Assembly (NCBI RefSeq): GCF_029255125.1
Contig: NZ_JAPUVR010000139.1
Location: 1-38,105, forward strand
Direction: 5' to 3'
Length of the DNA: 38,105 nt
DNA from: Accumulibacter sp.
Lineage (GTDB): Bacteria; Pseudomonadota; Gammaproteobacteria; Burkholderiales; Rhodocyclaceae
Shown: piece after piece, positions 4,105 to 21,270 of the stretch
How the letters are laid out: each line of letters opens with the position of its first letter
Numbering within the stretch: the first letter of the stretch is position 1
Translations under genes and position numbers: made by a program
Notes under the pieces: generated by a model
Seen by the model: only the letters and a program-made list of their open reading frames with translations
Database searches by the model: none
Told to the model about the DNA's origin: nothing

Positions 4105-6281
4105 GCGCGCTTGCCCGCTTGCGCGCCTGGCAGGCCGAACAGGCCGCGCTGCGCCAGATCGTCGTCGAGGACGGGCTGCCGAGCGCGGTGCGCGAGGCCG
4201 GCGGACTGTCGCGCTACACCTGGCAGGCCGGCGAGCTGGCCGAGATCGTCGAGGCCGACGGCGAAGCGTGGCGCTACGCCTATGGCGCCGACGGGCGTCT
4301 GCTGGCGGTCGAGCGCAACGGTCAGCGCTGGGCCGACTACCGCTACGACGCCAGCGGCCGCCTGAGCGAAGTGCAGCGCGCGGACGGGCCGCTGGCGCAT
4401 GCCTACGACGAGCAGGGCCGGCTGCAGCGCACGCTGCGCGGCGACGCCAGCCCGCTGGTCTATCGCTGGCAGGGAGAGCGCGTGCTCAGCGCGCGCTGTG
4501 ACCGCGAAGAAAGCCGTTTCCACTACGACGATCAAGGACGTGTCGTCGGTGTGGACCAGCAGGTCGACGGGCGCCAACTGTCGCTGCGCCGCAGCTTCGA
4601 CCAACAAGGGCGGCTGGCCGAGCTCGTTTTCCCGCAGTGGGAGCAGACGATTTCCTTTGCCTGGGACGAACGCGGTTGCCCGGCGGGAATCGACTGGAAC
4701 GGCCAGCGCATCGTCGCTTTCGGCAACGACCCGGCGCACCGGCGCACCTGGCAGCGCGGCAGCGACGGGGTGCTGCTCGAGACCTGGCACGAGGCGAGCA
4801 GCGGGCAGGCCGTCGACCAGCGGATGACGCACGCCGGAAAGCCGCTGTGGCGCTGCCGGCTGCAGCGCGACGAGGCTTTCCGCCTGATCGGCGAAGGCGA
4901 GCGCACGTATGCCTACGATGCCGCCGGACGGTTGAGCGAGGTGCGCGCCGGCGAACGCGTCTGGCGCTACGCTTGCGATGCGCGCGACAATCCGCTGCCC
5001 GATCCGGCCATCGTACAGGGCGTCGAGCACGACGCCGCCGGGCGCATTCGCCTGGTCCGCCAGGGCGCGGTCGAGCGCGTCTTTCGCCACAATCAGGCGG
5101 GCGAACTGCTCGAAGTTCTGCACGACGGCCGCCGCGTCGCGCGTTGCGCTTACGACCACAAGGGGCGGCTGGTCGTCAAGGCAGGTCCGGCGGGCGTCGA
5201 GCGCTACCTGTACGGGCCCGACGACGCGCTGCTCGCGGTGGCCGACGGCGAAGGGCGGCCGCAGTTGATCTACCTGCGCCTGCCGACCGGCATCGTCGGC
5301 CTGATCGATTTTCGCGCGTCGACCGCCGGCCGCGCGGTTTGCCTGCACTGCGACGTGCATGGCAACCTGATTTTCGCCGGGAGCGCCGAGGGGACGGCCG
5401 CGGGGACGATCGCCGGCCCCTTCGCCAGCGACGCCTTCGGTCTGCCGCTGCAGACGCCGGACGAACTGCCCTACCTCTATCGCGCACGCGTCTGGCACGC
5501 CGACCTTGGCCTCTACCGCGTCGGCGGTCGCTGGTACGACCCGCTGCTGCGCCGCTTCCTGACGCCCGATACCTGTACCGGCGCGCCCGACGATGCGCGC
5601 CTGGTCAATCCCTTCCGGCTGGCCGGCGAGCAGCGCATGGCGCGTGCGCAGATCCTCGGCGACTGGCTGCGCCAGCCCCGGCTGCGCAATCGCTGGGCTT
5701 TCTGCGCCAACGATCCGGTCAACCGCTTCGATCCGGACGGCCACTGGAGTTTCGGTGGCGTCATGCTCTCCGTGCTCGGCGTCCTGTGGACCTTGCCGAA
5801 CACCGCTTTCGGCCTCGCCGTCGAGGTCAGTTGCCTGATCGGCGAAGTCGTTCGCTGGCTCGTCTGGCTGTTTTCCGGCGGCAACGCGAGCTGGCAGACG
5901 CCGGGTTTCGACGTTGCCGCCTCGGGGCGGCTGAATGCTTTTGCCCTGGTCTTCAAGGGTGGCTGGCTGGGCTCGTTCGAGAATCTGCTCGGCATCACCT
6001 TCGGCAACGTCTTCTTCGTCAACGGCGAGTACGAACAGCATCCCGACTGGCAGCGGCTGCCCGATCCGGTGACGCCGTCGGCCTACGGCGGGACGCAGAC
6101 GATCGCCAAGAGCCAGGCGCTCTACGAACACGAATTGCGGCACGTCAATCAGTACAGTTGGTGGGGACCGTTTTTCCACCTCGGCCTGCCGCTGTTCGGC
6201 GTCTATGAGTGGGACGTCATTCTCAACGGCTATCAGAACGCGAGTCTGGAAGAAGACGCGCGCGCTCACGGCGGTTTCTGA
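4101..6281 (+). CDS. RHS/YD-repeat protein with C-terminal zinc-metallopeptidase-like domain
   Basis: This 726-residue protein begins with an ATG overlapping the previous stop (ATGA). Residues about 40-400 carry around a dozen YD-type repeats of the pattern Y-x-YDxxGRLxxV. Residues about 470-547 match the RHS core, with LYRVGGRWYDPLLRRFLTPD and ending NRFDPDG (544-547). RHS repeats are known to fold into a hollow shell enclosing a C-terminal toxin domain. Here the C-terminal 179 residues start with a hydrophobic stretch (about 552-590) and contain HELRH at 677-681. A downstream EEDAR (about 717-721) could supply the third metal ligand, the pattern of gluzincin-type zinc peptidases. There is no N-terminal PAAR or signal peptide. 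Its place inside the CIS operon suggests a cargo or effector. Peptidase activity is inferred from the motif. Confidence 0.85.
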   Translation: MSALARLRAWQAEQAALRQIVVEDGLPSAVREAGGLSRYTWQAGELAEIVEADGEAWRYAYGADGRLLAVERNGQRWADYRYDASGRLSEVQRADGPLAHAYDEQGRLQRTLRGDASPLVYRWQGERVLSARCDREESRFHYDDQGRVVGVDQQVDGRQLSLRRSFDQQGRLAELVFPQWEQTISFAWDERGCPAGIDWNGQRIVAFGNDPAHRRTWQRGSDGVLLETWHEASSGQAVDQRMTHAGKPLWRCRLQRDEAFRLIGEGERTYAYDAAGRLSEVRAGERVWRYACDARDNPLPDPAIVQGVEHDAAGRIRLVRQGAVERVFRHNQAGELLEVLHDGRRVARCAYDHKGRLVVKAGPAGVERYLYGPDDALLAVADGEGRPQLIYLRLPTGIVGLIDFRASTAGRAVCLHCDVHGNLIFAGSAEGTAAGTIAGPFASDAFGLPLQTPDELPYLYRARVWHADLGLYRVGGRWYDPLLRRFLTPDTCTGAPDDARLVNPFRLAGEQRMARAQILGDWLRQPRLRNRWAFCANDPVNRFDPDGHWSFGGVMLSVLGVLWTLPNTAFGLAVEVSCLIGEVVRWLVWLFSGGNASWQTPGFDVAASGRLNAFALVFKGGWLGSFENLLGITFGNVFFVNGEYEQHPDWQRLPDPVTPSAYGGTQTIAKSQALYEHELRHVNQYSWWGPFFHLGLPLFGVYEWDVILNGYQNASLEEDARAHGGF

Positions 6282-7339
6282 TGGCCACGCCGCGCCCGCA
6301 GTTTTCGTTTGCCGCCGGTGCGCTGAGCAGCGACTCGTCGTCGCCGGTCGCCGGCCCGCTGCGTTTCGTCGTCGAGCGCAGTCTGGACGTGCCGATCGAT
6401 GGCCTGCGCGTGACGCTTGCGGCGAGCGGCGGCGTCGCGCCCGGCGACCCGGTCGAGCTTGCCCTGGGCGACGAGGATAGTGTCGAGCGCGTGTTTACCG
6501 GCAGCGTCGCCGAAATCCGACCACGCCTGGGCGGTTGCGCGATCTTCTGCGTCGGCACGATGCTGGCGCTGGTCGATCTGCGCGTCTCGTCTTCCTATCG
6601 CGACACCAGCGCCGGCGACGTCGTGCGCGACCTCGTCGGGCAGGCGGCGCTGAGCGTCGGCGAGATCGACGACGGGATCACGCTGGCGCGCTTTGCCGTC
6701 GAACGCCGGCTTGGCGCGCACGCCCAACTGCGCCGACTGGCTGAGCGGCTCGGTTATTCGCTGTTTGCCGACCGCCTTGGCAAGGTTCATTTCCGCGCGC
6801 TGGGCGCGGCCGCCGGGTTGCGCGCCGGCGGCGCCGCGGCGCTCGCCGGGGCCGCTGCCGCGGCGTCGACGGCGCTCGGCACGAACGCCAGCGGCGCTTT
6901 CGCCTATGGCCGGCATCTGCTCGCCGCGGCTGGCCGGCAGCGCCCGGCGCTGGGCCGACGACTGCTGGTCGGCGGCGAGAGCCCGATGTCGGGGCAGGGC
7001 GAGGACAAGAGCTTCTGGCTGACGGCGACCGACAGCGACTTTCAGGATGCGGCCGGCGACGGGCCGGAAATGCTGATCACCGATCCGACGGCGCGGACGA
7101 AGGACATGGCGGGCCGCTTCGCCGCCGGTTACGCGGCCAGCCTGGCCAATCGCAACAGCGAGTTGCGCCTGCGCGTGCTGGGCATGCCGGGGCTCGAGCT
7201 GGGTGACCCGGCGAGCGCGGCGGATGCGCCGGAAAGCGGGCTGAATGGCGGCGGCCATGTGCGCAGCCTGCGCCACTGCTTCAGCGCACGCGAGGGTTTC
7301 GTCAGCGAAATCGGCGTTGCCCGCGGGGCAGGCGAATGA
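6281..7339 (+). CDS. Baseplate hub protein, phage late control gpD-like
   Basis: The ATG shares its A with the preceding TGA. The 352-residue product follows the gpD/gp27 layout: an N-terminal barrel with a VFTGSV-like strand, then a segment like SSSYRDTSAGDVVRDLV and a second barrel with LAERLGYSLFADRLGKVHF. Proteins of this family trimerise as the hub between the inner tube and the spike. An Ala/Gly-rich stretch (roughly residues 180-215) breaks the usual domain and may be a flexible loop. The gene is directly followed by the spike gene, the normal order for gpD and gpV. Family assignment is secure; the insertion is what is seen in this sequence. Confidence 0.85.
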   Translation: MATPRPQFSFAAGALSSDSSSPVAGPLRFVVERSLDVPIDGLRVTLAASGGVAPGDPVELALGDEDSVERVFTGSVAEIRPRLGGCAIFCVGTMLALVDLRVSSSYRDTSAGDVVRDLVGQAALSVGEIDDGITLARFAVERRLGAHAQLRRLAERLGYSLFADRLGKVHFRALGAAAGLRAGGAAALAGAAAAASTALGTNASGAFAYGRHLLAAAGRQRPALGRRLLVGGESPMSGQGEDKSFWLTATDSDFQDAAGDGPEMLITDPTARTKDMAGRFAAGYAASLANRNSELRLRVLGMPGLELGDPASAADAPESGLNGGGHVRSLRHCFSAREGFVSEIGVARGAGE

Positions 7340-8040
7340 ACGACCTGCTCGAGCTCATCCGGCGCTGCGTGCGCGAGGAAATTGCCGCCCGGCGCGGACC
7401 GCAGTTGGCGACGGTGACCGCGCTGAGCGCGCACAGCGCGAGCGACGATACGGCCAACTACGAGGCCGACGTGCGCCTCAAACACGACGGTCTGGAAATT
7501 GCGCAGGTGCCGATCGCCGTCAGCCACGTCGGTTTTGCCGCGCCGCCGCGTGTCGGCGATCTGGTCCTGGTCGAGTTTGTCGACGGCGACCTGCAGCAGC
7601 CGCTGATCACCGGCCGCTTCTACCACGACCAGGAAAGGGCGCCGCTCTTTCGCGACAACGAGGTGCTTTTCGAGCACCGCCTGGCCGACGACACGGTCAA
7701 CCACCTGCGTTTTGCCGACGATGGATCGATTTTCCTGCAGCGCGAGGTGAAGAAGCGCGAAGACAACAGCGAGTTCACCGCCGGCCTGCGCATTGCGCCC
7801 GACGGCCTGATCGAAATCAAGGCGGGGAGCAAGATCAGCGTCACGCTCGACGGCAAGAACGAAAAGGTGACGATCGTCTGCGACGGCAAGCCGATCGATC
7901 TCACGTGCTCGAAACTGACCGTAGACGCCGATGTCCAGATTCGCAAGACGCTCACCGTCGATGGCGACGGAACGATCAAGGGAACCGGCAAGATCAGCAG
8001 CGTGACGATCTCCGGCACCGACATTTCGGGGGGCGCCTGA
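7336..8040 (+). CDS. Spike/baseplate assembly protein, gpV/gp5-like
   Basis: The start overlaps the hub stop by four bases. In this 234-residue protein, residues about 18-100 form an OB-fold-like domain with PPRVGDLVLVEFVDGDLQQP and ITGRFY, the hallmark of the gpV/gp5/VgrG N-terminal OB domain. After residue 120 come short alternating strands rich in Gly, Asp, Ile, Thr and Lys (for example LDGKNEKVTIV and LTVDGDGTIKGTGKISS), as expected for a triple-stranded beta-helix needle. No lysozyme or effector domain is attached. It should sit below the hub as the puncturing spike. Confidence 0.87.
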   Translation: MNDLLELIRRCVREEIAARRGPQLATVTALSAHSASDDTANYEADVRLKHDGLEIAQVPIAVSHVGFAAPPRVGDLVLVEFVDGDLQQPLITGRFYHDQERAPLFRDNEVLFEHRLADDTVNHLRFADDGSIFLQREVKKREDNSEFTAGLRIAPDGLIEIKAGSKISVTLDGKNEKVTIVCDGKPIDLTCSKLTVDADVQIRKTLTVDGDGTIKGTGKISSVTISGTDISGGA

Positions 8041-8480
8041 TGGCTGACATGACGCTCGACGGGACGCTCAACCTGATGGGTACGCTGAGCTTCAAACCGA
8101 GCGCCGGCGGCAAGCTGCTGATCGGCGCGGCGGCGAGCGAAGCGCTGGTCGAAGTGACGCCGAGCGATCCGCCGCAATGCACTTCGGCGCCGCCGGTCAT
8201 CCTGCCGCCCCCGCCGGCTTCGCCCCTGCAGCCGCAACCGACGGTATGGATCGTCAACAGCTTCAACAAGACGGTCAAAGCGGGAAACCGCAACCTCGTC
8301 GCGCTCGGCATGGTGCTGCAGGGGCAAGCCGGCGCGCCGGTATGGCCGGGAATGCTGCTGCCGAGTACGGGCAATTCGACGGTGACGGTGAACCACATCC
8401 CGGTGAACGTGGTCAACGATAAGGCGGTGATCTTCCCGTCGGGCGGATCGGCCACCTTCACGACGAGCGGCCAACCATGA
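8040..8480 (+). CDS. Small spike-associated protein, candidate PAAR-like tip
   Basis: The ATG overlaps the preceding TGA by one base. The 146-residue product has an N-terminal strand-rich segment (MTLDGTLNLMGTLSFKP), a proline-rich linker (about residues 52-68), and a C-terminal Gly/Val/Asn-rich region with VTVNHIPVNVVNDKAVIF. It has no canonical PAAR motif. Its size, beta-rich composition and position right after the spike gene are where CIS operons often encode the spike tip, so that role is inferred. It could instead be another small baseplate component. Confidence 0.55.
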   Translation: MADMTLDGTLNLMGTLSFKPSAGGKLLIGAAASEALVEVTPSDPPQCTSAPPVILPPPPASPLQPQPTVWIVNSFNKTVKAGNRNLVALGMVLQGQAGAPVWPGMLLPSTGNSTVTVNHIPVNVVNDKAVIFPSGGSATFTTSGQP

Positions 8481-9208
8481 ACAGCCCAGCCCTGCAGATC
8501 GTCCAGCCAGTCGATGGCAGCGCTTTTCCCGCCGGAACACCGGTCGCGCTGCGCGCGCGGCTGACCGGCGATGCCGCCGGCCTGTATGTCAAGTGGTATT
8601 CGTCGCTCAACTCGGCGGCGACGGCCGAGCACCCGGAGCTGAATGTGGCCGACCATTCGCTCGCCATGCTCGACTGGAGCGCCGCGCTGCCCGAGTTCGG
8701 CAGCCACGCGCTGGTCGTCGCGGCGCTCGACCACGCCAGCGACACGGCGGCCGTCAGGCGCTCGGCGATGGCCGGCGGCGCTCCGCCGGAAGCGCCGCAG
8801 CCCTGCGTCGTGCACCGCCTGGTCGCACAGATCCGCACGCCGGCGACCGATGGTCAGGTGGTGTCGAAGGGCGCCTGCACTTTCGAGTTCCTGGCGCCGG
8901 CGCGCTGGGCCAGGGAAACGCCGCCGGCAAGCAACAACTGGGTCGCCGATGCCGACTACCAGCGCCTCAACGGCATCTCGTTCAGTCTGCGCCTGGCACC
9001 GGCCGGCCCGCCGGACGCCGCGCATACGGCCGAGTGGTCGCTCGATCTGGCCAGCCTGCCGTTCTTCCGTGCCGACGACGCCACCTGGCTGCGGCGCAGC
9101 GGCCCGCTGCCGGGCAATCTGGCCACCGGCAACTATCTCCTGAGCCTGTTCGTCAGCGTCGGCGGGGCGAGTGCCGTGGCGACCCGGCAACTCGTTCTCG
9201 TGGCCTGA
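8477..9208 (+). CDS. Ig-like domain accessory protein of the injection system
   Basis: This 243-residue protein starts with a four-base overlap. Residues about 5-95 look like an Ig/fibronectin-type beta-sandwich (ALQIVQPVDGSAFPAG, then GLYVKWYSSLN and GSHALVVAALDHA). A second sandwich-like unit follows at about 115-240 (RTPATDGQVVSKGACTFEF, then GNYLLSLFVSVGG). There is no signal peptide. Ig-like modules commonly decorate phage-tail baseplates and may bind carbohydrate or stabilise the complex. The specific role is unknown. Confidence 0.55.
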   Translation: MNSPALQIVQPVDGSAFPAGTPVALRARLTGDAAGLYVKWYSSLNSAATAEHPELNVADHSLAMLDWSAALPEFGSHALVVAALDHASDTAAVRRSAMAGGAPPEAPQPCVVHRLVAQIRTPATDGQVVSKGACTFEFLAPARWARETPPASNNWVADADYQRLNGISFSLRLAPAGPPDAAHTAEWSLDLASLPFFRADDATWLRRSGPLPGNLATGNYLLSLFVSVGGASAVATRQLVLVA

Positions 9209-9221
9209 GGGAGAGCGCGAA

Positions 9222-9662
9222 ATGGCCAGCGAACGAGGGCAGCTTTTCGGCAGCGACCTGCGGCTGCGCGACGGTGCCGGCGGGCTCGATCTGAGCCTCG
9301 AAGGCCCGGTCGGCTGGTCGGGCGATCTGGCGCTGGCGCACGGCAACGACAACATCGTCCAGGCGCTGACGCTGCGCCTGCGCGTGCGCGTCGGCGAACT
9401 GGCGCCGCTCGGCTGGCCGGACTACGGTTCGCGCCTGCACGAGCTGATCGGCGAGCCCGACCTGCCGCGCACTCGCCTGAAGGCGCAGGCCTTCGCGCGT
9501 CAGGCGATCGAGGCCGATCCGCGCGTCCGCCAAGTGTCGGCCCTGCACGTGTTCGCGCTGCCCGGCGAGCGTTCCGTCCTTCGCCTGGCGCTGGAAGTTG
9601 CGCTGATCGACCAGCCGACGCCGCTGAACCTGGTTTTCGACCTTGCCCTGGAGGGACCATGA
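9222..9662 (+). CDS. Baseplate wedge protein, GPW/gp25 family
   Basis: A GGGAGA ribosome site precedes the ATG in one of the few real gaps (13 bases) of the operon. The 146-residue product carries typical gp25 features: DNIVQALTLRLRVRVGELAPLG, then the conserved WPDYGSRLHELIGEP and a helix-strand segment with IEADPRVRQVSAL. The family is a structural wedge component that nucleates the sheath at the baseplate. It overlaps the following baseplate J gene by four bases, the usual gp25-J pairing. Length matches the family. Confidence 0.88.
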   Translation: MASERGQLFGSDLRLRDGAGGLDLSLEGPVGWSGDLALAHGNDNIVQALTLRLRVRVGELAPLGWPDYGSRLHELIGEPDLPRTRLKAQAFARQAIEADPRVRQVSALHVFALPGERSVLRLALEVALIDQPTPLNLVFDLALEGP

Positions 9663-11611
9663 TCGACCCCGGACATCCCTTCTCGAAGTCTTTCCAGAGG
9701 CTGGTCGATGGGCTCGTCGGCAGTCTGCAACTCGGTGTCGAGCAAGCGGCGGCGCTGGAGCTGATCTACCGCAGCGGGACGACGAGCTATTCGCTGCACG
9801 GCGTCGGCCCGCTCAGCGGGCTGGCCGAGCAGATCACCGGTTTCGTCGCCGGCCGGCCGGCGGTATTCAAGCTCGGTCAGCACTACACCTACGCCGTCGG
9901 CCAGCTCGTCTGGCAGCCGCTGCCGGCGGCGGCCGACCCGGAAATCGCTGCCAGCTGGTTTCCCGACGACAATTCGCGCCTGAACGTCGGCTACTACTTC
10001 CGCGACCTGCCTTCCGGAATCACCGACTTCAACGCCGGTAGCGTCGCCGGTACGCTGGTGCGCTCGCTGGCGCGCGAATTCAAGCTGCTCTACGAGCAGA
10101 TGGACCAGGCGTATCGGCGCGCCTTCATCGATTTCGCCGAGGGAGCGGCGCTCGACAATGTCGTCGCCCTGCTCGGCGTAGCGCGCAACCAGGCGCTGCC
10201 GGCGCAGGGCAAGGTCACTTTCTGGCTGAGAAAGGCGCCGCGCAACGACCTGGCGATCGCCGTCGGCACGCGCGTTGCCGACGCGCGCGGCCGTCTGTTC
10301 AAGGTCACCGCGCCGGGCGTCATCCGCGCCACGCTGGTCGAGGAGGTGGCGGCCGCCGGCAAGGTGGCGCACACCAGTGTCGCCATCGCGAATCTGCTGC
10401 ACGTGCGGGTGAAAGGCGGCACGAGCAACCTGGCGACCATTCCGAGCAAGGCCGGCAAGCCCTTCGGCGACGACGAGACGACGATCACGCTCGCCGCCGT
10501 TCCCTCTTCGTCGATGCTGGTGGTCACTTTTCAGGCGCGCCGGCCGCAGGTCGAGGTGCCGGTCATCGCGCTCGACAATGGCCCGGAAGGGAACCTCGGT
10601 TCGGGCAGCCTGACCGTCATGCCGACCCCACCGCGCGGCGTCGATGGCGGCGTGGTCAACGAGCAGCCGCTGAGCGGCGGTGTCGCCGCCGAAGGCGACG
10701 AGCAACTGCGCGAGCGCGCCAAACACGCGCTCGAACGCGCCGGGAACGCAACGCTGAACGCCATTCGCTACGCGGTGATGACGATCGACGGCGTAGACAG
10801 CGTCGAAGTGCGCGACTGCTCGCTCGACGCGGCGATTCCGCTCGGCGAAGTCTGGGTGCGCTTTTCGACCGGCAAGCCGGATCTCGTCGGGCCGCTGGTC
10901 AGCGACATCGTCGAGCGGACGCGCGCGGCCGGCATCAAGGCCGTCGTCAGCCAGGTGCGCACGGTCACACTGAGCGGCAGCTTCCTGGTCATCGGCGACG
11001 CCAGCGGCAATCTGGCCGACGCCCGCCAGCGTTACCGACTGGCGGTGATCGCCGCGCTCAAGGCGCTTGCCATCGGCGAAGCGGTATCGCCGCGCAAGCT
11101 CGCCGCGCTGGCTTTCCGGATTGCCGGCCTGGCCGACACCGGCGAGGTTCAGCTCGACTATGTGCGCGGCAGCGCGGCGCCGGCGGCGGTCGACCGCGAC
11201 CCCTTCGTCATCGACACTGGCGAACAGGCGCGGCCCGACGAAGGTGCGCTGAGCGTGCGTTCGCTGCACGCGCTGCACGTTTCGACCGCCAGTCTGGCGG
11301 TCGACGGCCGGCTGACGCTGTCGCTGCGCGTCACCGACGACGACGGCCTGGCCTTGCGCTTTCGCAACTTCCAGCTCGCGCTGCTCGCCACCGTGCGGGC
11401 AAAGCTGGCGAGCACGCCGAATCAGCCGCTGCAGCAGGTCGCGCAGGTGGCCGGCACGGTCACGCTGGCCGCCGCCGAGCAGGCGACACCGGTCTTCGCC
11501 ACGGTGCTCATCGCCAACCGCGCCAGCCTCGACGCGGCGAGCGCCGAAATCGTCGTGCAGGCCGCCGCCTATCCGGGAATCGTTCCCGCTTCGGCGCACC
11601 TTGCCTTGTAG
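9659..11611 (+). CDS. Baseplate J-like protein (gp6 homologue)
   Basis: This 650-residue protein has the baseplate J layout. An N-terminal region reads DNVVALLGVARNQALPAQG (about 160-180). It is followed by repeated strand segments and the conserved block LRERAKHALERAGNATLNAIRYAV (about 349-372) leading into GVDSVEVRD. The C-terminal part (about 440-500) contains a helix and a strand ending GEVQLDY. In known systems J/gp6 dimers form the inner ring of the baseplate wedges. An extra C-terminal sandwich-like region of about 110 residues lies beyond the usual domain. The start overlaps the gp25 stop by four bases. Confidence 0.85.
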   Translation: MIDPGHPFSKSFQRLVDGLVGSLQLGVEQAAALELIYRSGTTSYSLHGVGPLSGLAEQITGFVAGRPAVFKLGQHYTYAVGQLVWQPLPAAADPEIAASWFPDDNSRLNVGYYFRDLPSGITDFNAGSVAGTLVRSLAREFKLLYEQMDQAYRRAFIDFAEGAALDNVVALLGVARNQALPAQGKVTFWLRKAPRNDLAIAVGTRVADARGRLFKVTAPGVIRATLVEEVAAAGKVAHTSVAIANLLHVRVKGGTSNLATIPSKAGKPFGDDETTITLAAVPSSSMLVVTFQARRPQVEVPVIALDNGPEGNLGSGSLTVMPTPPRGVDGGVVNEQPLSGGVAAEGDEQLRERAKHALERAGNATLNAIRYAVMTIDGVDSVEVRDCSLDAAIPLGEVWVRFSTGKPDLVGPLVSDIVERTRAAGIKAVVSQVRTVTLSGSFLVIGDASGNLADARQRYRLAVIAALKALAIGEAVSPRKLAALAFRIAGLADTGEVQLDYVRGSAAPAAVDRDPFVIDTGEQARPDEGALSVRSLHALHVSTASLAVDGRLTLSLRVTDDDGLALRFRNFQLALLATVRAKLASTPNQPLQQVAQVAGTVTLAAAEQATPVFATVLIANRASLDAASAEIVVQAAAYPGIVPASAHLAL

Positions 11612-11626
11612 CCGGGAGAAGACGCC

Positions 11627-12952
11627 GTGTCGTTCAAGACCGACCGCCTGAGCGCCCTTTTTCCGGACGTTTACGCCGCGCGCGAAGGCGACTCGCTGCT
11701 CCACCGCCTGCTCGACGCGCTCGCCGCCGAGCTGCTGCACAGCGACGCGGCGGTCAAGGATCTGCTCAAGTCGCACTGGATCGATCACGCCAGCGGGGGC
11801 GGCCTCGATGGTCTCGGCAGCTTGCTCGGCGTCGCGCGCCGCCGTCTGCCCGACGGCACGCGCGAGGGCGACGACACTTTCCGGCCTCTGCTCAAGTCGA
11901 CCGTTCTCTCTTTTGTCGGCGGGGGCACGGTCGAAGCGCTGAAGGGTGCCATCCGCGCCGCGCTTGGCCTGCCTTACGACCTGGCGCTGTTCGAGCGTCA
12001 ACTGGTCGGCGCCGGCGGCAAGACGAGCACGGGGATGGCCGATCTGATCGCCGGCCTCGACCGACTGGTAAGGATCGAAGAGTTCTCGCCAAAAGCCGAA
12101 GTCGTGCTGGGCAACGCGCCGGCCAGCGCCGGCGGCAGCAGCGTGACGCTGGAAGTCAATTTCGCGACGATAGAAGCGGTCGCGCCGCGCATCGAATGGA
12201 GCTTCACGCAGGGTGCCGGGCGCCACCTTTCGCTCGTCCGCCAGGACTCCGGCGCGGGAGTCGCCTCGCGCGAGGAGTTCGTCGTTCCGCAGGGCAGCAC
12301 GCTGGTTCTCGCCGAAGACGCGAGCGGCCGCTTCTCGGCCTCGATCGGGACGAGCGAGGTCAGCGACTGGTTCGTCGATATCGGCGGTACGGCGCCGGCA
12401 GTGCTGCCGAAGGTTCCCACCGGCGATTCGAAATGGGTCTTTTCGGCGGCGCGCGCCGGCGAGTTCGGTTTTTCGACCTACGACAGCGGCGAGACCTTCG
12501 ACGCGCCGGCTTTCGCCATCCGCATGGCATGGATTCGCTATCAGCCGCTGACCTTCGATGTCGTCGTTCCATACTTCGTCGACGCGGCGGTCAAACGCAT
12601 CCTGGCGGGCACCGGCTACGAAAAGCGCTTCCGCGTTTTTGCCGGCCTCTCGCTCGACGCCATCCAGCGCGTGGTGGACAGCAAGCGGGCGGCCGGCGTG
12701 CGCGGCATGGTACAGTATTCGCTCTCCTTGCCCGGCGAATCGTTCGAGCGGGTCCCCTGGGAAGATCATGCCGCGGGCGAGCACTTTTCCGCCGCGCTCG
12801 ATCACCGGTACGGCGAGCAGCACGATGCGGACGAAGACCTGCTCGTCGGCGCGCTCGGAAGCGCGCGCGAAGTGCACGACGCGCATGAACGCTTCGCGAT
12901 CGGCGGCGTCTTCGACGTTGCCGTCTCGGATGGCAGTTTCGGCTTTCAGTAA
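11627..12952 (+). CDS. Tail protein gpI-like baseplate component
   Basis: The GTG start follows a GGGAGAAG ribosome site, 15 bases after the baseplate J stop. The first 130 of 441 residues match the tail protein I pattern: LSALFPDVYAAREGDSLLHR, a helix, KDLLKSHWIDHASGGGLDGLGS, and GTVEALKGAIRAALGLPYD. The gene order J then I is standard. The remainder contains sandwich-like strands, a YFVDAAVKRIL helix, and a C-terminal segment shared with large CIS gpI proteins. In phages gpI joins J to the fibres. Confidence 0.75.
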   Translation: MSFKTDRLSALFPDVYAAREGDSLLHRLLDALAAELLHSDAAVKDLLKSHWIDHASGGGLDGLGSLLGVARRRLPDGTREGDDTFRPLLKSTVLSFVGGGTVEALKGAIRAALGLPYDLALFERQLVGAGGKTSTGMADLIAGLDRLVRIEEFSPKAEVVLGNAPASAGGSSVTLEVNFATIEAVAPRIEWSFTQGAGRHLSLVRQDSGAGVASREEFVVPQGSTLVLAEDASGRFSASIGTSEVSDWFVDIGGTAPAVLPKVPTGDSKWVFSAARAGEFGFSTYDSGETFDAPAFAIRMAWIRYQPLTFDVVVPYFVDAAVKRILAGTGYEKRFRVFAGLSLDAIQRVVDSKRAAGVRGMVQYSLSLPGESFERVPWEDHAAGEHFSAALDHRYGEQHDADEDLLVGALGSAREVHDAHERFAIGGVFDVAVSDGSFGFQ

Positions 12953-13472: not shown

Positions 13473-14648
13473 ATGCCACTGAGCCCCGATCTACCGTTTC
13501 CGAAGAGCGCCGGCGACGCGATTCGCTCGAAGGACTGGAACGACCTGGTCACCGAAACGCAACGCCTGGACAACGCCAAGGTCAACCGGGCAGGTGACGC
13601 AATCAGCGGTCCGCTGACCATCGCCGGCGCACTCGCGGTCGGCACGACGACGCCGGGCAGCCGGCTGCACCTGGTCGACAGCAACACGCCGGCGGTCTTG
13701 CGCATCCAGAGCACGCGCGCTTTCGGCCAGGGACAGATCGAATTCTGGAGCGATCCGCAAGGCAGCGCGACGGAATGGCGCCCAGCCATGCTGCAGTCGA
13801 TCGACCTCGGTGGTTTCACCGGTGGTCTGGCCTTTCTCACCAACGGCAGCGGCGCCGCCAACCGCACCGGCCAGGTTGAGGCGCTGCGTCTGGTCGACGG
13901 ACGGGTCGGTATCGGCGTTGCCACGCCAGCGTTCAAGGTCGATGTCGGCGACCGCATCCGGCTGCGCCAGGGTGTTGGCGGCACCGCCGGCCTCTGGCTG
14001 TACCAGACGACACCGAGCGAGGACCGCGCTTTCGTCGGCATGGTGAGCGACGACGCGGTTGGTTTCTGGGGCAGCAAGGGAATCGGCTGGGGGCTGAGCA
14101 TGGACGTCACGCACGGCAGCGTCGGCGTGCGTACCTCGGCGCATCCCGACGTCGGACTCTACGTCAATGGTACCGACAAGACCTACGGCCTCTACGTCTA
14201 CGGAGCGTCGTCGCAGAGCCTCTACGTCAATGGCAATGCCTACATCGCCGGGCGCGCACGCGACCAGAAGATCCGCTCGTCGGTGGCGACCGGCAACCAG
14301 GTGAGTACGGCGAGCACTGGCTATGTCGATATGCCGAACATGAGCCTGACGATCAACGCGGCGATCGGCGCCTATTTCCAGATCAACGTCCAGATCAACG
14401 GCGTACAGGCCACCGGCGGGACGACGATCGGCGCCTATTTCCGCCTGCTGGTTGACGGCGGCGTGCAGGAAAGCACACGCCAGGAGTTCAACCACAACGG
14501 TTGGGAACTGCGCGGCGTGACGCTCAGCCGACTGCTCTACCTGGCCGCCGGGTCGCACACGATTGCCGTTCAGTGGGCGGTCACCAGTGGAACCCTGACC
14601 TGCTGCTGGTACGGCGACATACGGCAGATTCAGGTCATCGAACAGTAA
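13473..14648 (+). CDS. Tail fibre / receptor-binding protein
   Basis: GAGGAG precedes the ATG with seven-base spacing. The 391-residue protein starts with a fibre-anchor-like segment (SKDWNDLVTETQRLDNAKV, then ISGPLTIAG). It continues with the GTTTPGSRLHLV motif found before beta-helical fibre shafts and has short LYVNG/LYVYG repeats near residues 229-252. The C-terminal 120 residues, from about 270, resemble a TNF/C1q-type jelly roll (YFQINVQINGVQATGG, then FRLLVDGG and GSHTIAVQWAV). Fibres of this kind set the target-cell specificity of contractile tails. The ligand cannot be read from the sequence. Confidence 0.75.
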   Translation: MPLSPDLPFPKSAGDAIRSKDWNDLVTETQRLDNAKVNRAGDAISGPLTIAGALAVGTTTPGSRLHLVDSNTPAVLRIQSTRAFGQGQIEFWSDPQGSATEWRPAMLQSIDLGGFTGGLAFLTNGSGAANRTGQVEALRLVDGRVGIGVATPAFKVDVGDRIRLRQGVGGTAGLWLYQTTPSEDRAFVGMVSDDAVGFWGSKGIGWGLSMDVTHGSVGVRTSAHPDVGLYVNGTDKTYGLYVYGASSQSLYVNGNAYIAGRARDQKIRSSVATGNQVSTASTGYVDMPNMSLTINAAIGAYFQINVQINGVQATGGTTIGAYFRLLVDGGVQESTRQEFNHNGWELRGVTLSRLLYLAAGSHTIAVQWAVTSGTLTCCWYGDIRQIQVIEQ

Positions 14649-14660
14649 GCGGAGGTCAGC

Positions 14661-15203
14661 ATGTATCTGGTTATCGACAAGCGAAGCAAAACGATTCTGC
14701 ACATGTCGAATTCGTTTCCCGGCGAGGAGAAGGCGGCTAAAGACGTCTTTCCCGAATTCGATCCGGCGACGATGGATTTCGGCCGTTCGCCCGAGCAGTA
14801 CGTACCGACCGAGTTCGCGATCGAGAACGGCGTGGTCAAGAACCTCGCCGCGCTGACCGCCTCGGTCAACCTCGTCGAGTCGATCGATCAGGCGCGCCAG
14901 CGCAAGCTCGCGCAGTTCTCCGATGCGTCGTTCGCCGCGCGCCGCGAGCTGATCCCCGATCACGAACTGATCAACGCCGCGCTCGGCATCTACGACGCCG
15001 AGCGCGTGCAGTCGATCCGCCGCACGGTCGAGGCCTTTCGCAACGAATACCACCGCTTGGCCGCGGCGGTTGGCAAGGCGGGCTCGCCGGGCGAGCTGGA
15101 AGCAATCAAGGCGTCTTTCCCGAAAAGCGTCGTCCAGCCGGTCGTCGGTGGCGCGGCGCCGAATACGGTCGGCGCGCAAATCGTGCTCCGGGCGAAAAGC
15201 TGA
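14661..15203 (+). CDS. Uncharacterised protein downstream of the tail fibre
   Basis: A GGAGG lies five bases before the ATG. The 180-residue product begins MYLVIDKRSKTILHMSN, has an acidic loop with FDPATMDFGRSPEQYVP, and is helical from about residue 70 to 150. No membrane segment, signal peptide or catalytic motif is seen. Genes in this position in phages are often fibre-assembly chaperones, but no specific similarity was recognised. It is cotranscribed with the injection-system genes and shares its last base with the next start codon. Confidence 0.55.
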   Translation: MYLVIDKRSKTILHMSNSFPGEEKAAKDVFPEFDPATMDFGRSPEQYVPTEFAIENGVVKNLAALTASVNLVESIDQARQRKLAQFSDASFAARRELIPDHELINAALGIYDAERVQSIRRTVEAFRNEYHRLAAAVGKAGSPGELEAIKASFPKSVVQPVVGGAAPNTVGAQIVLRAKS

Positions 15204-15448: not shown

Positions 15449-16222
15449 ATGTTGCTCGCTCTGGAAAACGCCGTCGACGCGCTGCTCAGGAGCGAGTTGC
15501 CGGCGCTGTTCGCGGGCGCGGGCGCGGCGACCGCGAGCTTTGCCAAGCAGACCTGGGATTTCGACCGCCTGTCGGCCGACCCGCTCGCCGGAGAACCTGG
15601 TCCGCAGGACGCGGTCGACGACCTGTCGTTCGACCCGGCAGTGCCGGGCGGGCCGTATTTGTTGACGCGACCGCCGTACCCGGGCAGCAAACGCGTCTAT
15701 CTGCGCTCGGCTGCCGGCGAACTCGTCGCCCTTGCCCCTTCCGAGGTAGTTTGGAATCCGGCCGATGCAGCGTCGTTCTCGCTCGCACCGCGTCCCGGGC
15801 GTGATCTTGTCGGCTTCAGCCGGGTGCAGGTTCTCTACGGCGTCGTCGCCGCAGCAACCCACCTGAAAGTGCGCCACCAGCTCAGCCTGCAGATTGCCGC
15901 GGCCGACGCGGCAGCGGCCGAAAGAGCTTGCGCGCTCGCCTTGTCGGTGCTCGTCATGCACCGCGCGGCACTGTTGCGCGCCGGCGGGACGAGCTGGACG
16001 GCCAACGGCTACCAGGCGGCGAGCGTGCTGAAGGCACTCAAGTTCGCCGCCGGCGCCGCGCCAGCCAGTGCGACGCGCAGCCTGATGCTCGAAGCCGAGG
16101 TCGACCTGCGCCTCGAACGTCTGCTCGGCGCCGACGAGGGGCATGCCATCCGGCATCTCGTTTCGCCCGGGCGCAGCTCCGGCAGCAAACCGATCGACGT
16201 CGATCCCGCCGTCCAGTCCTGA
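15449..16222 (+). CDS. CIS-associated protein, DUF4255/Pvc16-like (tentative)
   Basis: This 257-residue protein opens with a helix (MLLALENAVDALLRSELPAL) like the start of DUF4255/Pvc16-type proteins, which in other extracellular CIS cap the tube and sheath at the distal end. The middle part has strand motifs such as PYLLTRPPYPGSKRVYLRS and VQVLYGVVAAATHLKVRHQL, and the end is a charged tail. No signal peptide is present. The tail-terminator role is inferred from this weak similarity and the operon context only. Confidence 0.5.
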   Translation: MLLALENAVDALLRSELPALFAGAGAATASFAKQTWDFDRLSADPLAGEPGPQDAVDDLSFDPAVPGGPYLLTRPPYPGSKRVYLRSAAGELVALAPSEVVWNPADAASFSLAPRPGRDLVGFSRVQVLYGVVAAATHLKVRHQLSLQIAAADAAAAERACALALSVLVMHRAALLRAGGTSWTANGYQAASVLKALKFAAGAAPASATRSLMLEAEVDLRLERLLGADEGHAIRHLVSPGRSSGSKPIDVDPAVQS

Positions 16223-16239
16223 CTGAAGCGGAGGCCACG

Positions 16240-19200
16240 ATGGCACGCATTCACGCTTTCCTGCAGCTTGACCCCGAGCGCTCGCCCGAGCAGATCGATT
16301 TCCTGCGCAGCCGGGCGAGCGTCCTGCGCGAAGCCGGCGGGCAGTTCTGGGTCGAGCTCGACGAAGCGCAGGTCGCGACCTTCGTTGCCGAAGGCTTTGC
16401 GGTGACGACCGACGCCAACGCCGGCGTACTCAGCCTCGGCCCGCTGAGTTTCCGTCCGGCGAGCGAAACGCCGCAGCCGCCGGCGCAGCTCACCGCCGCC
16501 TTGCCGAGCGGCGAGCAGACGCCTTTCTGGCTGGTCCATTTCGTCGCGCCGGTCGACAAGGCGTGGCTGGTCGACCTCGTGCTCGCCGGCGCTGTGCAAG
16601 TGCAAGTGGTCGACGCCTGCAGCGCCGTGTTCAGCATGACGGCGGCAACGGCGGACGCTGTGCGCGCGCTGCCGGTGGTCGATTTCGTCGGGGCCTACCA
16701 CCCGGCGTACGCCGTCGACCTCGATCTGGCTGGCGTCGATCAAGTGTTTACCGCCGCCTCGCTGGCGACCTTGACGTTGAACCTTCCGCCCGCCACCGGC
16801 GAAGGGAATCTGCAGGTGCAGCTTTTCGACGCGCTCGACGAGGCGAGCGTGCGCCCGCTGCTGGAAGCCGCCGGGGCTACCATCGTGGCCGAAACGGCCG
16901 GTGGTTTTCTGCTCAGCGTCGCGCCCGAGCGCTGTCCGGCGATCCTCGCCGTGCCCGGCGTCTTCCATGCGGCACTGCCCGCGCGCATCGATCTGTGCAG
17001 CCACCACGCCGGGGTGATCGTCGGCGCCAACCAGGTTCGCCAACTGGGAACGGTCAACTTTCTGGTCAATCTCGATGGGGCAAGCGAAATCGGCGCGGTC
17101 GTCGATTCCGGCTTCGACGTCGGCAGCCTGGCTGGCGCGGTCGTTCCGCTGACCGGCGCGATGACGCCGTTTCATCCCGATCTGGCGACCAGCATGCGCC
17201 TGCTGCGCAACAGCAACACGCCGCAAAACACGGCGCTCGGCGTTCCCGACGGCGCTCCGCACGGAACGCACGTGGCCGGCATCGTTGCCGGCGACGGTAG
17301 CGCTTCGGGCGGTGCCAACCGCGGGATGGCGCCGCGCAGCGCCTTGATCGGACTGGCTCCGCTGCCCAACAACTTCCGCGTCCCGTTCAACTTTGCCGAA
17401 ATCAACGGCGCGCGCGTCATCAACAATTCCTGGGGCAGCTCGTTTGTCGGCGGCAACAACAACCGCTACACGCCTAACGAGTCGCAGGCGGTCGACCGCT
17501 GGTGCTTCGACCACCCAGACGTTCTCCTCGTCTTCTCCGCCGGCAACGACGAGAGCGATACCTTTGGCGGTGCCGATGGCGTCCTCGACGCGCGTACGCT
17601 GCGCCTGCAGGCGGCGGCGAAGAATGTCCTCGCCGTCGGCGCCTCGGAAAACCTGCGCGTGGACAGCGGTTGGCGCGACAACTACCGCGCGTTCTTTCCC
17701 GGCCGCTATTCGCACGCCGCATTCAACGTCTCCGCGAACGCGCCGGCGAACGCCTTCAGCATGTCGGACAACGCCGACGACATCGGTCTGTTCAGCGATC
17801 GCGGGCGCGTGCGGACGAACGGTCTGGTCAACACGAACCGGGTCAAGCCCGATCTCGTGGCGCCGGGGACGAACGTCCTTTCCTGCCGTTCGCAGTTCGT
17901 TGCCCAGCCGCCCGGTCTGCCGGCGCCGCCGATCGCGCCGGCGTTCTGGAACGCCAACTCGGACTCGATGCTGCCGCCCGGGCTGAGTCGCAACCTTTAC
18001 CATATCCTGACCGGGACGAGCATGGCGACGCCGGTGGTCAGCGGTTCGGCGCTGCTCGTCCGCCAGTTCTACCGCACGCGTTTTGCCCAGATGCGCCGGC
18101 CGCTCTTGCTCGACGGCGTGCCGCTGCCGGATGCGGCGCCGCTACCGGTCTTCGGTCATCCGCCAGCGATTGCCCGGCACGCCGACGGGCTGGTCTGCGC
18201 CTGGCTGAGGCCGGCGCTGCCGGCCGAGCAGAAAAACATCGTCGGCATGCGCATCGGGCGCAATCTGGCACCGATCGATGCCCAGCCGGTGCATCTGCAC
18301 GACGATGTCGGCGAGCACGCGGCGCCGAAGCTGGCCAGCGTCGGCGAGCGGACCTACCTGCTGCACCGGCAGCGCGACGGCAAGATGCGCCTGACGTGCT
18401 ACGACCGGGCGCTGCAACTGGTCGCCGGCTTCGGCAGCGCCGGCAGCGTCGTCCTGGCGCCCGACGCGCGCACCGACGACGCGGTACCGCCCGACCTGAT
18501 CGCAGTCGGCGAGCGGCTGGTTTGCGTCTTCCCGGCGGTCGGCGGCAACGGCTACTTCTTCCAGCGCTTCCGCGCCGACAACGGCAACGCGGTCGATGCC
18601 GCGTCGATCAGCTTCCTGTTCCACGACGCCACCGGTCCGCATCGTCCGCTGGTCTGGAACGGCAACTGCTTCACCGTCTGCGGCGTCGTGCACGCGGGCA
18701 ACTACCGCCTGCAGCTGCGACAGATGAACGACGCCGGACAGGTGCAGGGCGCCGGCCCGCTGACCGTGCTCGAACAGGCCGCCGAGTTGCGCGAACCCTG
18801 CCTGCTCTGGGACCCGCGCGGGGCGCGTCACGTCCTCGTCTGGTGCGACGCGCGGACGATCGCCGGCGGTGAAATCTGGCTGCAGTTCCTCGACCGCAAC
18901 GCAGCCGCCAGCGGCGCGCCACGCCTCGTCGTCAGCCTCGCCGCCGGTCAGCACCTGCGCCGACCGCGTATCATCAATCACCCGGACGGCGGATACGCGC
19001 TGTTCTGGGAAGACGACACGCAAGACGGCCACTACGACCTGTACCTGGCTTTTCTCGACGCCAACGGGGCGCCCGACAGCCGCCTGCCAATCGCCGCCGA
19101 CGATGCGCTCGGCCGTCGTCTGCGCCGCCTGTCGGATACCCCCGGCGATACGGCCGGCTTTGCCAGCTTTGCCGACAGCGAAGGGTTCTCGCTGATCTAT

Positions 19201-21270
19201 CAGAGCCCGGACGAGCTCAATTCCGACCGACTCGGCGTCTACCTGCTCAATCTGACGCGCGCCGGCGCTTTCGCCGCGCAGGAAGAGCCCACCACGCCGC
19301 TCCTGAAGAGCGGGCGCTACGTCGTCGCCACGTTGCTCGAACACGAAAGTACGGCGATTTCAGCGCTCTCGGCGGTGTGGAGCGGTGGCGCCTACTATCT
19401 GCTGCGTCAGGCTCCCGGCGACGACCTGCACGACCGGCTGCAGTGGTTGCGCCTGCACGCCGACGGGGCGATCGACGAGAGCTTCGGCGTCGCCGGCGTG
19501 CGCGAGCGGCCGACGACCTTCCTCGTCCTCGGTTGCGAAATGCTGTGGACCGGCAACGACCGTCTGATCTCGGCCGCCAACGACGCGCTGGGCGGCATCA
19601 CGCTGCACCTGCACGACGCGCTCGGCGCACCCGTCGCCGACTTCGGAACCGGCGGTGCGGCGGCGCTGGTCGACAACGTGACGGTGCACGACCGGATCAC
19701 GCCACAACTCGGTTTCTTCACGGCGCCGGCTTTCCACCTGGTCGTCGGTTACGGAACGACGCAGGCCGGTGTGCTGCAATTGCGCCAGCAGCGCGTCAAC
19801 CGGCTCGGCGTGCGCGTCGGCACGGCGGTCAATCTGGCGCGCGCCGACGGCGTGGCGCGCCACGACTGGTTCCAGTACGTGAATAGCGAAGCGCGCTCGA
19901 TTGCCATCTACCACCGGGTGAACGGCGCGCTGACGCGCGTCCATTGCCGGCGCTACCGCCTCGACGGCACGCCCGATGGGGCCGAGCGCAACCTCAGCGC
20001 GGCCGCCGGCGAAGCGATCAACGGCGTCATCGCGCGCCGGCCGACCGCCGCCAACTCGAGCAACCGCGAATATGCGGCGGCTTGGCAGTACCGCGCGAGC
20101 AACGCGGCGCGCTGGGAGATTCACTTTGCCCGCCTCGATCGGCAGGGGCAGCCGATGGCCAATCCACCGGCCAACGCGCCGCCGATGCCGGTCAGCGATG
20201 TGCCGGTGATCACGCCGGCGACCGCCGGCTGGAGCGCGACGCGCGACGCCGTCGAACCGCTGCTCGTGTGCACCTGCACGCACGAAGCGTGGGCCAATCC
20301 GCCGGCGGTGCTGCCCGCCGGGACCAGCTTGCCGGTATGGAGCCCGGCCTACGGCCTGGCCTGGATCGGCGTCGAAACCGACGGTTCGCGCCTGCTGTTC
20401 TTTACTGCGCTGGACGAGAACGGCCGCCAACTCGTCGTCACGCCGCCGCCACCGGCGGCTGGCCCGCTCGCGGCGCGCGCGCCGGTCGGCATCCTGCAGC
20501 TCAGTTCGCCGACGGCGCGCGTGCAGGATTTCAAGCTGGTCTGGAACGGCCGCGTCTTCTTCATCTCCTGGGTCGAGGAGGAAAGCGGACGTCTGCGGCA
20601 CCGCCATACCGTGGTCAACCGGCACGCCAGCCAGAACGCCAACGAACTGCCGAGCGCCGCGCTGTTGCGTGCGACGCTGATCAACGGTGCGACCAACATC
20701 ACGCCCGGTGCGCTGCCCGACACGGCCGCCGGCTACGGCTGGGGCCGGGTCAATTTGCGCCAGAGTCTGGCGCCGGCGCCGCCGGTGACGCTGCACGTGC
20801 GCGACGACTGCGCCATCGGTCCCGGTCGCAGTGTGCGCTACCGCTTCGTCCTGCCCGCCGGCAGCGCCTTGCTGCGCGTCACGCTCAACTGGACCGACCC
20901 GCCCGGGCCGCGCTTGATCAACCATCTGCACCTGAGCGTGCGCGCACCGGCGCCGACCGGTGCCGCCCAGCGACCGGAGTTTCGCGGCAACCTGTGGCAA
21001 ACGGCGGCCGGCCAGACGCACCTGTCGCGACCCATCGCCAATCCGCCGGTCGCCGCTGACGCGCACGAGAACATCCAGACCTTCAAGCAGGTCGTCCTCG
21101 CCAACCCGCTCCCCGGTGAGTACGAGGTCGAGGTGTCCGCCGCGATCTTCCCGGCCGATCCGTTCAACCAGCAGAACCTGCAGGCTTTCGCGCTAGTCTT
21201 TGCCGGCAGCGGGCGCGAGCTGCGTTTCAACCAGCCGGCTCCGGCGGTGAGCGGAACCGGAATCTACTGA
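16240..21270 (+). CDS. Giant S8 (subtilisin-like) serine protease with domain insertion
   Basis: GGAGG sits five bases before the ATG chosen; the frame is open upstream into the previous gene. In this 1676-residue protein, residues 1-265 hold two or three prodomain-like modules (for example VDFVGAYHPAYAVD). The catalytic triad is Asp289 (VVDSG), His341 (HGTHVAG) and Ser594 (GTSMATP), with Asn436 (SAGND) for the oxyanion hole. The catalytic domain is interrupted after about residue 620 and resumes at PSAALLRATLINGA (1471 on) and GWGRVNL (about 1500-1506). It is followed by a C-terminal sandwich like that of KP-43-type proteases (1515-1676). The intervening 845 residues show repeating strand units with LVWNG-like motifs, suggesting beta-propellers. 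There is no signal peptide, so it may be cytosolic, processed with the machine, or carried by it. Confidence 0.9.
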   Translation: MARIHAFLQLDPERSPEQIDFLRSRASVLREAGGQFWVELDEAQVATFVAEGFAVTTDANAGVLSLGPLSFRPASETPQPPAQLTAALPSGEQTPFWLVHFVAPVDKAWLVDLVLAGAVQVQVVDACSAVFSMTAATADAVRALPVVDFVGAYHPAYAVDLDLAGVDQVFTAASLATLTLNLPPATGEGNLQVQLFDALDEASVRPLLEAAGATIVAETAGGFLLSVAPERCPAILAVPGVFHAALPARIDLCSHHAGVIVGANQVRQLGTVNFLVNLDGASEIGAVVDSGFDVGSLAGAVVPLTGAMTPFHPDLATSMRLLRNSNTPQNTALGVPDGAPHGTHVAGIVAGDGSASGGANRGMAPRSALIGLAPLPNNFRVPFNFAEINGARVINNSWGSSFVGGNNNRYTPNESQAVDRWCFDHPDVLLVFSAGNDESDTFGGADGVLDARTLRLQAAAKNVLAVGASENLRVDSGWRDNYRAFFPGRYSHAAFNVSANAPANAFSMSDNADDIGLFSDRGRVRTNGLVNTNRVKPDLVAPGTNVLSCRSQFVAQPPGLPAPPIAPAFWNANSDSMLPPGLSRNLYHILTGTSMATPVVSGSALLVRQFYRTRFAQMRRPLLLDGVPLPDAAPLPVFGHPPAIARHADGLVCAWLRPALPAEQKNIVGMRIGRNLAPIDAQPVHLHDDVGEHAAPKLASVGERTYLLHRQRDGKMRLTCYDRALQLVAGFGSAGSVVLAPDARTDDAVPPDLIAVGERLVCVFPAVGGNGYFFQRFRADNGNAVDAASISFLFHDATGPHRPLVWNGNCFTVCGVVHAGNYRLQLRQMNDAGQVQGAGPLTVLEQAAELREPCLLWDPRGARHVLVWCDARTIAGGEIWLQFLDRNAAASGAPRLVVSLAAGQHLRRPRIINHPDGGYALFWEDDTQDGHYDLYLAFLDANGAPDSRLPIAADDALGRRLRRLSDTPGDTAGFASFADSEGFSLIYQSPDELNSDRLGVYLLNLTRAGAFAAQEEPTTPLLKSGRYVVATLLEHESTAISALSAVWSGGAYYLLRQAPGDDLHDRLQWLRLHADGAIDESFGVAGVRERPTTFLVLGCEMLWTGNDRLISAANDALGGITLHLHDALGAPVADFGTGGAAALVDNVTVHDRITPQLGFFTAPAFHLVVGYGTTQAGVLQLRQQRVNRLGVRVGTAVNLARADGVARHDWFQYVNSEARSIAIYHRVNGALTRVHCRRYRLDGTPDGAERNLSAAAGEAINGVIARRPTAANSSNREYAAAWQYRASNAARWEIHFARLDRQGQPMANPPANAPPMPVSDVPVITPATAGWSATRDAVEPLLVCTCTHEAWANPPAVLPAGTSLPVWSPAYGLAWIGVETDGSRLLFFTALDENGRQLVVTPPPPAAGPLAARAPVGILQLSSPTARVQDFKLVWNGRVFFISWVEEESGRLRHRHTVVNRHASQNANELPSAALLRATLINGATNITPGALPDTAAGYGWGRVNLRQSLAPAPPVTLHVRDDCAIGPGRSVRYRFVLPAGSALLRVTLNWTDPPGPRLINHLHLSVRAPAPTGAAQRPEFRGNLWQTAAGQTHLSRPIANPPVAADAHENIQTFKQVVLANPLPGEYEVEVSAAIFPADPFNQQNLQAFALVFAGSGRELRFNQPAPAVSGTGIY

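Follow-up and report, generated by a model that had tools for sequence, protein, structure and literature searches.

Among the features of eCIS is an AAA ATPase. The core genes Afp12, 13, 14 or 16 serve as a criterion for these systems (PMC8213781, available text), and propeller lectins occur on some eCIS fibres (PMC12923769, available text). Among subtilases, KP-43 has a jelly-roll barrel behind its subtilisin-like domain and the triad Asp30, His68 and Ser255 (PMC7471176, available text), and CspB carries a jellyroll insertion of about 130 aa and retains its prodomain (PMC3567191, available text). The words subtilisin and subtilase are absent from the main texts of the eCIS papers searched (including PMC8213781, PMC11297309 and PMC12923769). 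In the literature searched, made up of main texts with few subscription papers or preprints, neither a subtilase with a propeller inserted in it nor one that belongs constantly to a contractile machine was described. Here we describe P0001, a protease encoded in the window (the whole stretch of 38,105 nucleotides of Accumulibacter sp. DNA that was analysed), which appears to combine the two.

Comparison at the sequence level confirms P0001 as a KP-43-type subtilase whose catalytic domain is broken in the loop that follows the helix carrying the serine. The subtilase domain PF00082, the sole domain found by Pfam, covers residues 286–612 (E 1.5e-32). The catalytic triad and oxyanion Asn lie where the sequence-only reading had placed them, at Asp289, His341, Asn436 and Ser594, and are identical in all eight aligned family members, as expected of a peptidase of family S8. 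PADLOC returned a generic subtilase match and nothing else, and PHROGs a match to a phage protease family. The family profile aligns with KP-43 (1wmd) at E 2e-43 in three collinear pieces, chain residues 19–191 falling on 278–474, 194–272 on 506–610 and 280–424 on 1468–1637. A search of solved structures with the single sequence likewise gave KP-43 in three pieces, the last joining query 1461–1574 to chain 270–379. Because KP-43 aligns in this piecewise manner, the catalytic domain is interrupted after the serine helix, and because chain 280–424 aligns beyond the break, the last stretch of the domain and the barrel come after it. By sequence, then, a KP-43-like catalytic domain is followed by a C-terminal beta-barrel, but the catalytic domain is not continuous, and we therefore call P0001 KP-43-type rather than a plain member.

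The spacing of conserved motifs points the same way. From the catalytic Ser594 to Pro1471 of the next helix motif there are 877 residues, compared with 24–26 in all seven relatives that are uninterrupted at that point (two of these, L006 and L008, come from one contig, and L066 has another insertion further on). The net insertion is thus 851–853 residues, and seven KP-43 chain residues are unmatched across the break. The split proposed from the sequence stands, at a size close to the 845 residues proposed. The final catalytic segment does come as late as had been suggested, PSAALLRATLINGA starting at 1471 and GWGRVNL at 1500, and PF00082 stops at profile position 258 of 288. The entry linker holds four residues (Q617, R619, R620 and P621) that are invariant in the eight aligned sequences.

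We fetched whole clusters through the baseplate protein J, which gave seven loci in the genome collection. Six of them carry the split protease, with the insertion at the identical place and 36–74% identical to that of P0001: Accumulibacter UW9-POB and Ca. Accumulibacter appositus (74% each), Pyxidicoccus caerfyrddinensis (61%), Azohydromonas aeria (58%), a Burkholderiales MAG (53%) and a Chloroflexota MAG (36%). In the seventh, Ideonella azotifigens, the contig ends before the insertion site, and a C-terminal fragment (model positions 1540–1672) lies at the edge of another contig of that genome. A further genome, from the Myxococcota sample, has both the split protease and the cluster on a 13.2-Mb contig. 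Homologues with the same split, which the sequence-only reading had proposed to look for, thus exist in Pseudomonadota, Myxococcota and Chloroflexota, and the retention of the arrangement in such distant bacteria makes it likely that it is a working part of the machine. In the Azohydromonas aeria locus (L039, around 16500–16800) the first 200 or so residues of the homologue are in a different frame, perhaps through a sequencing error or decay.

Outside these clusters, relatives were found for the catalytic part. Searches with P0001 gave matches in 3 of 150 genomes of the family, 1 of 300 of the order and 2 of 398 of the phylum, the own genome included, with two to three candidates scored per genome and sensitivity limited accordingly; the non-self matches cover the catalytic domain only. 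No match was found in phages. Plasmids gave 13 records at a query coverage of 32% or less, the two inspected being unsplit S8 proteins, and the insertion alone had no plasmid match at E 0.01. In viral contigs, the insertion profile gave nothing that was confirmed. A scan with the subtilase alignment found an IMG/VR contig homologue that is 42% identical over residues 1–664 and is cut off by the contig end just inside the insertion. The three related viral-collection records stop short of the insertion or run only into its beginning. Among the viral-contig matches listed, at least 10 more at 23–31% identity, and five further relatives at 21%, match the catalytic part only. On an Azospirillum argentinense plasmid (L009, 13969–16370), an unsplit relative is annotated as two overlapping S8 genes, apparently broken in frame.

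The insertion was claimed to consist of repeated strand units with LVWNG and VWSGG motifs. The motifs are present, LVWNG at 804 and 1433 and VWSGG at 1046, and the test for repeats gave a divided answer. In the single sequence, self-similarity is barely above chance (best score 47, where 20 shuffles reached 39 at most), and blastp of the insertion against itself returned the full diagonal only. With a seven-sequence family profile, repeats emerge. In 70-residue windows and without preset units, the best self-matches fall at lags of 404, 56–57, 93, 452 and 629 residues, at a probability of 78% at best (a search without its own control); a lag of 56–57 equals one unit and 404 about seven. We set the boundaries of 14 units by hand (38–90 aa, 10 of them 50–58 aa), which gives the repeated units of about 50 aa that mark a beta-propeller. 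The median profile score between units is 12.5, compared with 8.95 for column-shuffled controls. Of 91 unit pairs, 44 exceed the 95th percentile of these controls, 17 exceed the maximum of their 182 comparisons and 16 exceed the maximum of a control built from catalytic-domain tiles. Mean scores are highest for adjacent units and for units seven apart (17.5 each; permutation p 0.006 and 0.04), the seven-apart signal being modest.

On this basis we favour a reading of the insertion as two seven-bladed beta-propellers in tandem, the second likely a divergent copy of the first. Known propeller-repeat models match it only at scores below their curated cut-offs: the delta-60 repeat TIGR02608 matches unit 8 in five of seven members (best 22 bits against a cut-off of 76.5; best E 1.1e-4), and DUF5122 (PF17164), described as a propeller, matches two of seven (13.8 bits against 27). 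Against the PDB, the insertion profile found two designed trefoils only (E 0.38 and 0.98). Ten of the 14 units, combined in one profile, matched three designed beta-trefoils, the lectin CV39L (E 0.0098), an acylphosphatase and an antibody chain, a result that does not decide the fold; CV39L, a propeller, and the designed beta-trefoils have similar E-values. A naive strand prediction gave four strands in 4 of the 14 units only. Given the models below cut-off, the weak structure matches and the missing four-strand pattern, the propeller fold is likely rather than established.

In the N-terminal region, the possible modules 91–170 and 180–261 align end to end at a probability of 5% only. The family profile matches the N-termini of the relatives L066, L009 and L011, and gave no match in L006, L007, L008 or L010. 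No strongly hydrophobic N-terminal stretch was found in any of seven sequences (highest 15-residue mean hydropathy 0.24–1.15), so that the protease would be made with no evident Sec signal.

The protease gene lies in a cluster with the order sheath, tube-like, 188-aa, variable protein, hub, long protein, Rhs, hub/VgrG-like, spike, PAAR-like, Ig-like, gp25, J, I, 158-aa, fibre, (180-aa), 257-aa and protease (coordinates in Table 1). Sheath, spike and the baseplate proteins J, I, gp25 and hub thus occur together, as in contractile tail-like clusters. In the window genome, contig C114 begins with a sheath, tube and 186-aa end that is probably part of the cluster on C139; the 166-aa protein after the sheath matches the tail tube family PF18906 below cut-off (E 0.0066). 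A second sheath match besides C114 (L044, C127, 682–1167) means that this genome may carry another contractile system. No capsid, portal or terminase was matched in the cluster proteins scanned, the outer flanks being partly read, and neither an AAA ATPase nor eCIS-specific Pfam domains were recognised in them. J had no match in phages and plasmids at E 1e-10 and was matched in 6 of 199 genomes of the family sample, own genome included, the other five over about 100–135 residues only. In the Accumulibacter genus sample, where every first-look candidate was scored, the two genomes of 27 that have J are also the two that have the split protease. The Myxococcota sample likewise has both in the same 2 of 195 genomes, with 2 and 6 candidates scored per genome and rare misses possible. 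Judged from these gene neighbourhoods, the split protease is a constant member of a contractile, phage-tail-like cluster in the genomes sampled.

Table 1 Features of the protease gene and of the tail-like cluster in the window
Feature	Position	Strand	Basis or remark
Baseplate hub protein (DNA_circ_N)	101..697	+	domain match
Long protein, high helix propensity, possible tape measure	694..4104 (start approximate)	+	
Rhs/YD-repeat protein, conserved C-terminal HELRH	4101..6281	+	
Baseplate hub protein, VgrG-related	6281..7339 (start approximate)	+	NCBIfam below cut-off
Spike/baseplate V-like OB protein	7336..8040	+	
PAAR-like protein, weak	8040..8480	+	Pfam E 0.085
Ig-like protein, weak	8477..9208	+	Pfam Big_7 E 0.058
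gp25-like baseplate wedge	9171..9662 (start approximate)	+	Pfam below cut-off; PHROG baseplate E 6.7e-14
Baseplate J protein	9659..11611	+	
Baseplate I-like protein	11627..12952	+	PHROG baseplate protein E 7.6e-8
Tail-associated protein, conserved, 158 aa	12973..13449	+	
Fibre-like protein, N-terminus conserved, remainder variable	13473..14648	+	
180-aa protein	14661..15203	+	matched in 4 of 10 related loci
257-aa protein, conserved, directly upstream of protease	15449..16222	+	
GGAGG ribosome-binding-like site, 5 nt upstream of P0001 ATG	16230..16234	+	read directly
P0001, split KP-43-type subtilase, 1676 aa	16240..21270	+	ORF, Pfam and KP-43 matches
P0001 residues 1–261, N-terminal region, possibly two tandem prodomain-like modules (weak)	16240..17022	+	
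P0001 residues 262–612, catalytic domain part 1 (Asp289, His341, Asn436, Ser594)	17023..18075	+	PF00082, KP-43
P0001 residues 613–640, entry linker, conserved	18076..18159	+	alignment
P0001 residues 641–1039, repeat units 1–7, proposed propeller 1	18160..19356	+	profile comparison
P0001 residues 1040–1466, repeat units 8–14, proposed propeller 2	19357..20637	+	profile comparison, sub-threshold delta-60
P0001 residues 1467–1512, catalytic domain last part (PSAALLRATLINGA...GWGRVNL)	20638..20775	+	KP-43 alignments
P0001 residues 1513–1676, KP-43-like C-terminal beta-barrel domain	20776..21267	+	1wmd profile alignment to chain 424

Identities were compared over the 15 pairs of six clusters, with L039 and L012 left out. 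The most conserved part of the protease is the segment after the insertion (1467–1512; mean identity 73%). The C-terminal domain averages 64%, the first part of the catalytic domain 62% and the propeller halves 51 and 53%. For the other cluster proteins, the means are 59% for Rhs, 57% for J, 50% for the long protein and 38% for the fibre. The propeller halves are therefore about as conserved as J and the long protein, and the fibre is less so; in level, the conservation of the protease is that of the fixed parts of the cluster. In five pairs, dN/dS (NG86) is 0.06–0.64 and below 1 in all six protease segments, with some dS saturated. Pairwise divergence follows that of J with a rho of 0.74–0.84 for the protease segments and 0.76 for the fibre, compared with 0.91–0.94 for the Rhs, long and Ig-like proteins. 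The protease tracks J less closely than these three and no better than the fibre does, and some independent exchange of it among clusters is therefore possible. In the fibre-like protein, about 60 N-terminal residues are kept across clusters and much of the rest is exchanged. In Ca. Accumulibacter appositus (L035, 15756–16535), a stop interrupts the gene of the 257-aa protein upstream of the protease.

In Rhs proteins the C-terminus usually varies. The Rhs protein of this cluster is conserved to its C-terminus, with a HELRH (HExxH) motif downstream of a hydrophobic stretch in all nine sequences (the window, L030, L032–L035 and L037–L039), and from its sequence it is possibly a second protease of the machine.

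We rate as about evenly balanced the chance that P0001 is a split KP-43-type protease held on a contractile particle by two tandem seven-bladed propellers. According to this model, the protease would be made without an evident Sec signal and would fold with the help of its own N-terminal region. The propeller module would project from the back of the catalytic domain and hold the enzyme on the particle, the chain would then return to complete the subtilase fold and add the C-terminal beta-barrel, and the open active site would cut protein when the particle meets its target. We infer the propeller fold, the attachment to the particle and the substrate on the target side. The position of the insertion bears on its role. 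In subtilisins, the serine helix starts at the active site, crosses the core and ends on the face opposite the cleft. The insertion follows the end of this helix and would thus project away from the cleft, which makes docking or target binding more probable than gating. Of the two roles suggested from the sequence, the known subtilisin fold thus speaks against gating, and docking is kept as an inference. A shared domain that could mark a docking partner was not apparent: in 84 profile comparisons, no convincing domain was common to the protease and 14 other cluster proteins, the best probability being 8% and the best E 0.004, compared with 0.04 for reversed controls.

Alternatively, the protease could be an effector or toxin delivered into or onto the target, its propellers binding victim molecules or the spike, which we consider possible but rather unlikely. 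In the window and the five genomes with the downstream side read, no ORF of at least 80 aa outside the protease region is shared at E 1e-6, and the protease therefore closes the cluster. This position, together with the missing evident Sec signal, is compatible with an effector, given that an eCIS survey chose its toxin candidates partly by their 3' location and describes peptidase toxins among them (PMC8213781, available text) and that 46 protease or peptidase annotations are found among the toxin candidates of PMC11297309 (available text). Against it, the protease is conserved over its full length among clusters, whereas the 3' toxins of that survey vary, and small size was another basis on which its candidates were picked (PMC8213781, available text). 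The absence of a shared ORF likewise means that no common immunity gene was seen in the five downstream flanks and the window. At 1676 aa, the protein is also large for a tube lumen.

An unlikely reading is that P0001 is a maturation protease trimming cluster proteins, for example the Rhs protein or the long helical protein, during assembly, with the propellers picking the substrate. It would fit the co-occurrence of the protease with the full structural set and the similar conservation of the Rhs and long proteins, but no cleavage site or substrate was identified, and the protease gene is not adjacent to that of either protein. A gating role, in which the propellers would let only small or extended substrates reach the active site in the manner of prolyl oligopeptidase, is quite improbable: propellers do govern access in S9 oligopeptidases (PMC9218822 and PMC3507156, available text), but by the known subtilisin fold the insertion would emerge here where the serine helix ends, on the side turned from the cleft. 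An assembly or annotation artefact is rejected as practically impossible, because the same insertion is present in independent genomes (six other genomes or MAGs from three phyla, and the 13.2-Mb contig), even though the genome of the window is a draft assembly in 150 contigs.

Taking the split protease docked on its particle as the preferred reading, the insertion, about twice the size of the catalytic domain and kept across phyla, shows how a protease can be built into larger machinery. A dedicated protease may thus be a constant component of some contractile injection machines, for which Azohydromonas, Ideonella and Pyxidicoccus are examples of cultured hosts. Only tentatively do we go further and propose a distinct class of capsid-less contractile machines, present in at least three phyla, with built-in proteases of their own, a subtilase opened up to hold a double-propeller dock and a fixed HExxH domain in the Rhs shell, in which puncturing and local proteolysis would be one coupled act.

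Among known proteases, KP-43 and SubHal (1wmd, 5fax) resemble P0001 by sequence in both the catalytic domain and the C-terminal beta-barrel, but their catalytic domain is uninterrupted, where P0001 has about 850 residues between chain positions 272 and 280. S9 oligopeptidases have a peptidase fold different from that of subtilases. Like P0001, S9 prolyl oligopeptidase and DPPIV combine a serine peptidase with a propeller, which in their case is N-terminal and, in the sources as available, covers the active site. CspB of Clostridium (4i0w), which matches the P0001 family profile at E 4.9e-11, likewise has a subtilase domain interrupted by another domain and retains its prodomain; it differs in that the insertion is a jellyroll instead of repeats, is about one-sixth of the size and lies centrally, and in its role in spore germination (PMC3567191, available text). 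In genome G1081 (L066/L067), a KP-43-type subtilase with a separate insertion is encoded; L066 has a related N-terminus and an inserted module, but of about 150 aa and one helix later, between PSAALVKATLLNGA and GWGRVDL. Together, P0001 and L066 suggest that this end of the subtilase domain accepts insertions. The PA domain of cell-envelope proteases, which are cell-wall enzymes, sits before the catalytic Ser. Like P0001, these proteases have a domain inserted within the protease domain (PMC10535647, available text). With eCIS and tailocins, the cluster shares sheath, tube-like, baseplate and spike-like genes; it differs in that the clusters seen constantly carry a split subtilase alongside an Rhs protein with a conserved HELRH, and in that no AAA ATPase was recognised in the proteins scanned.
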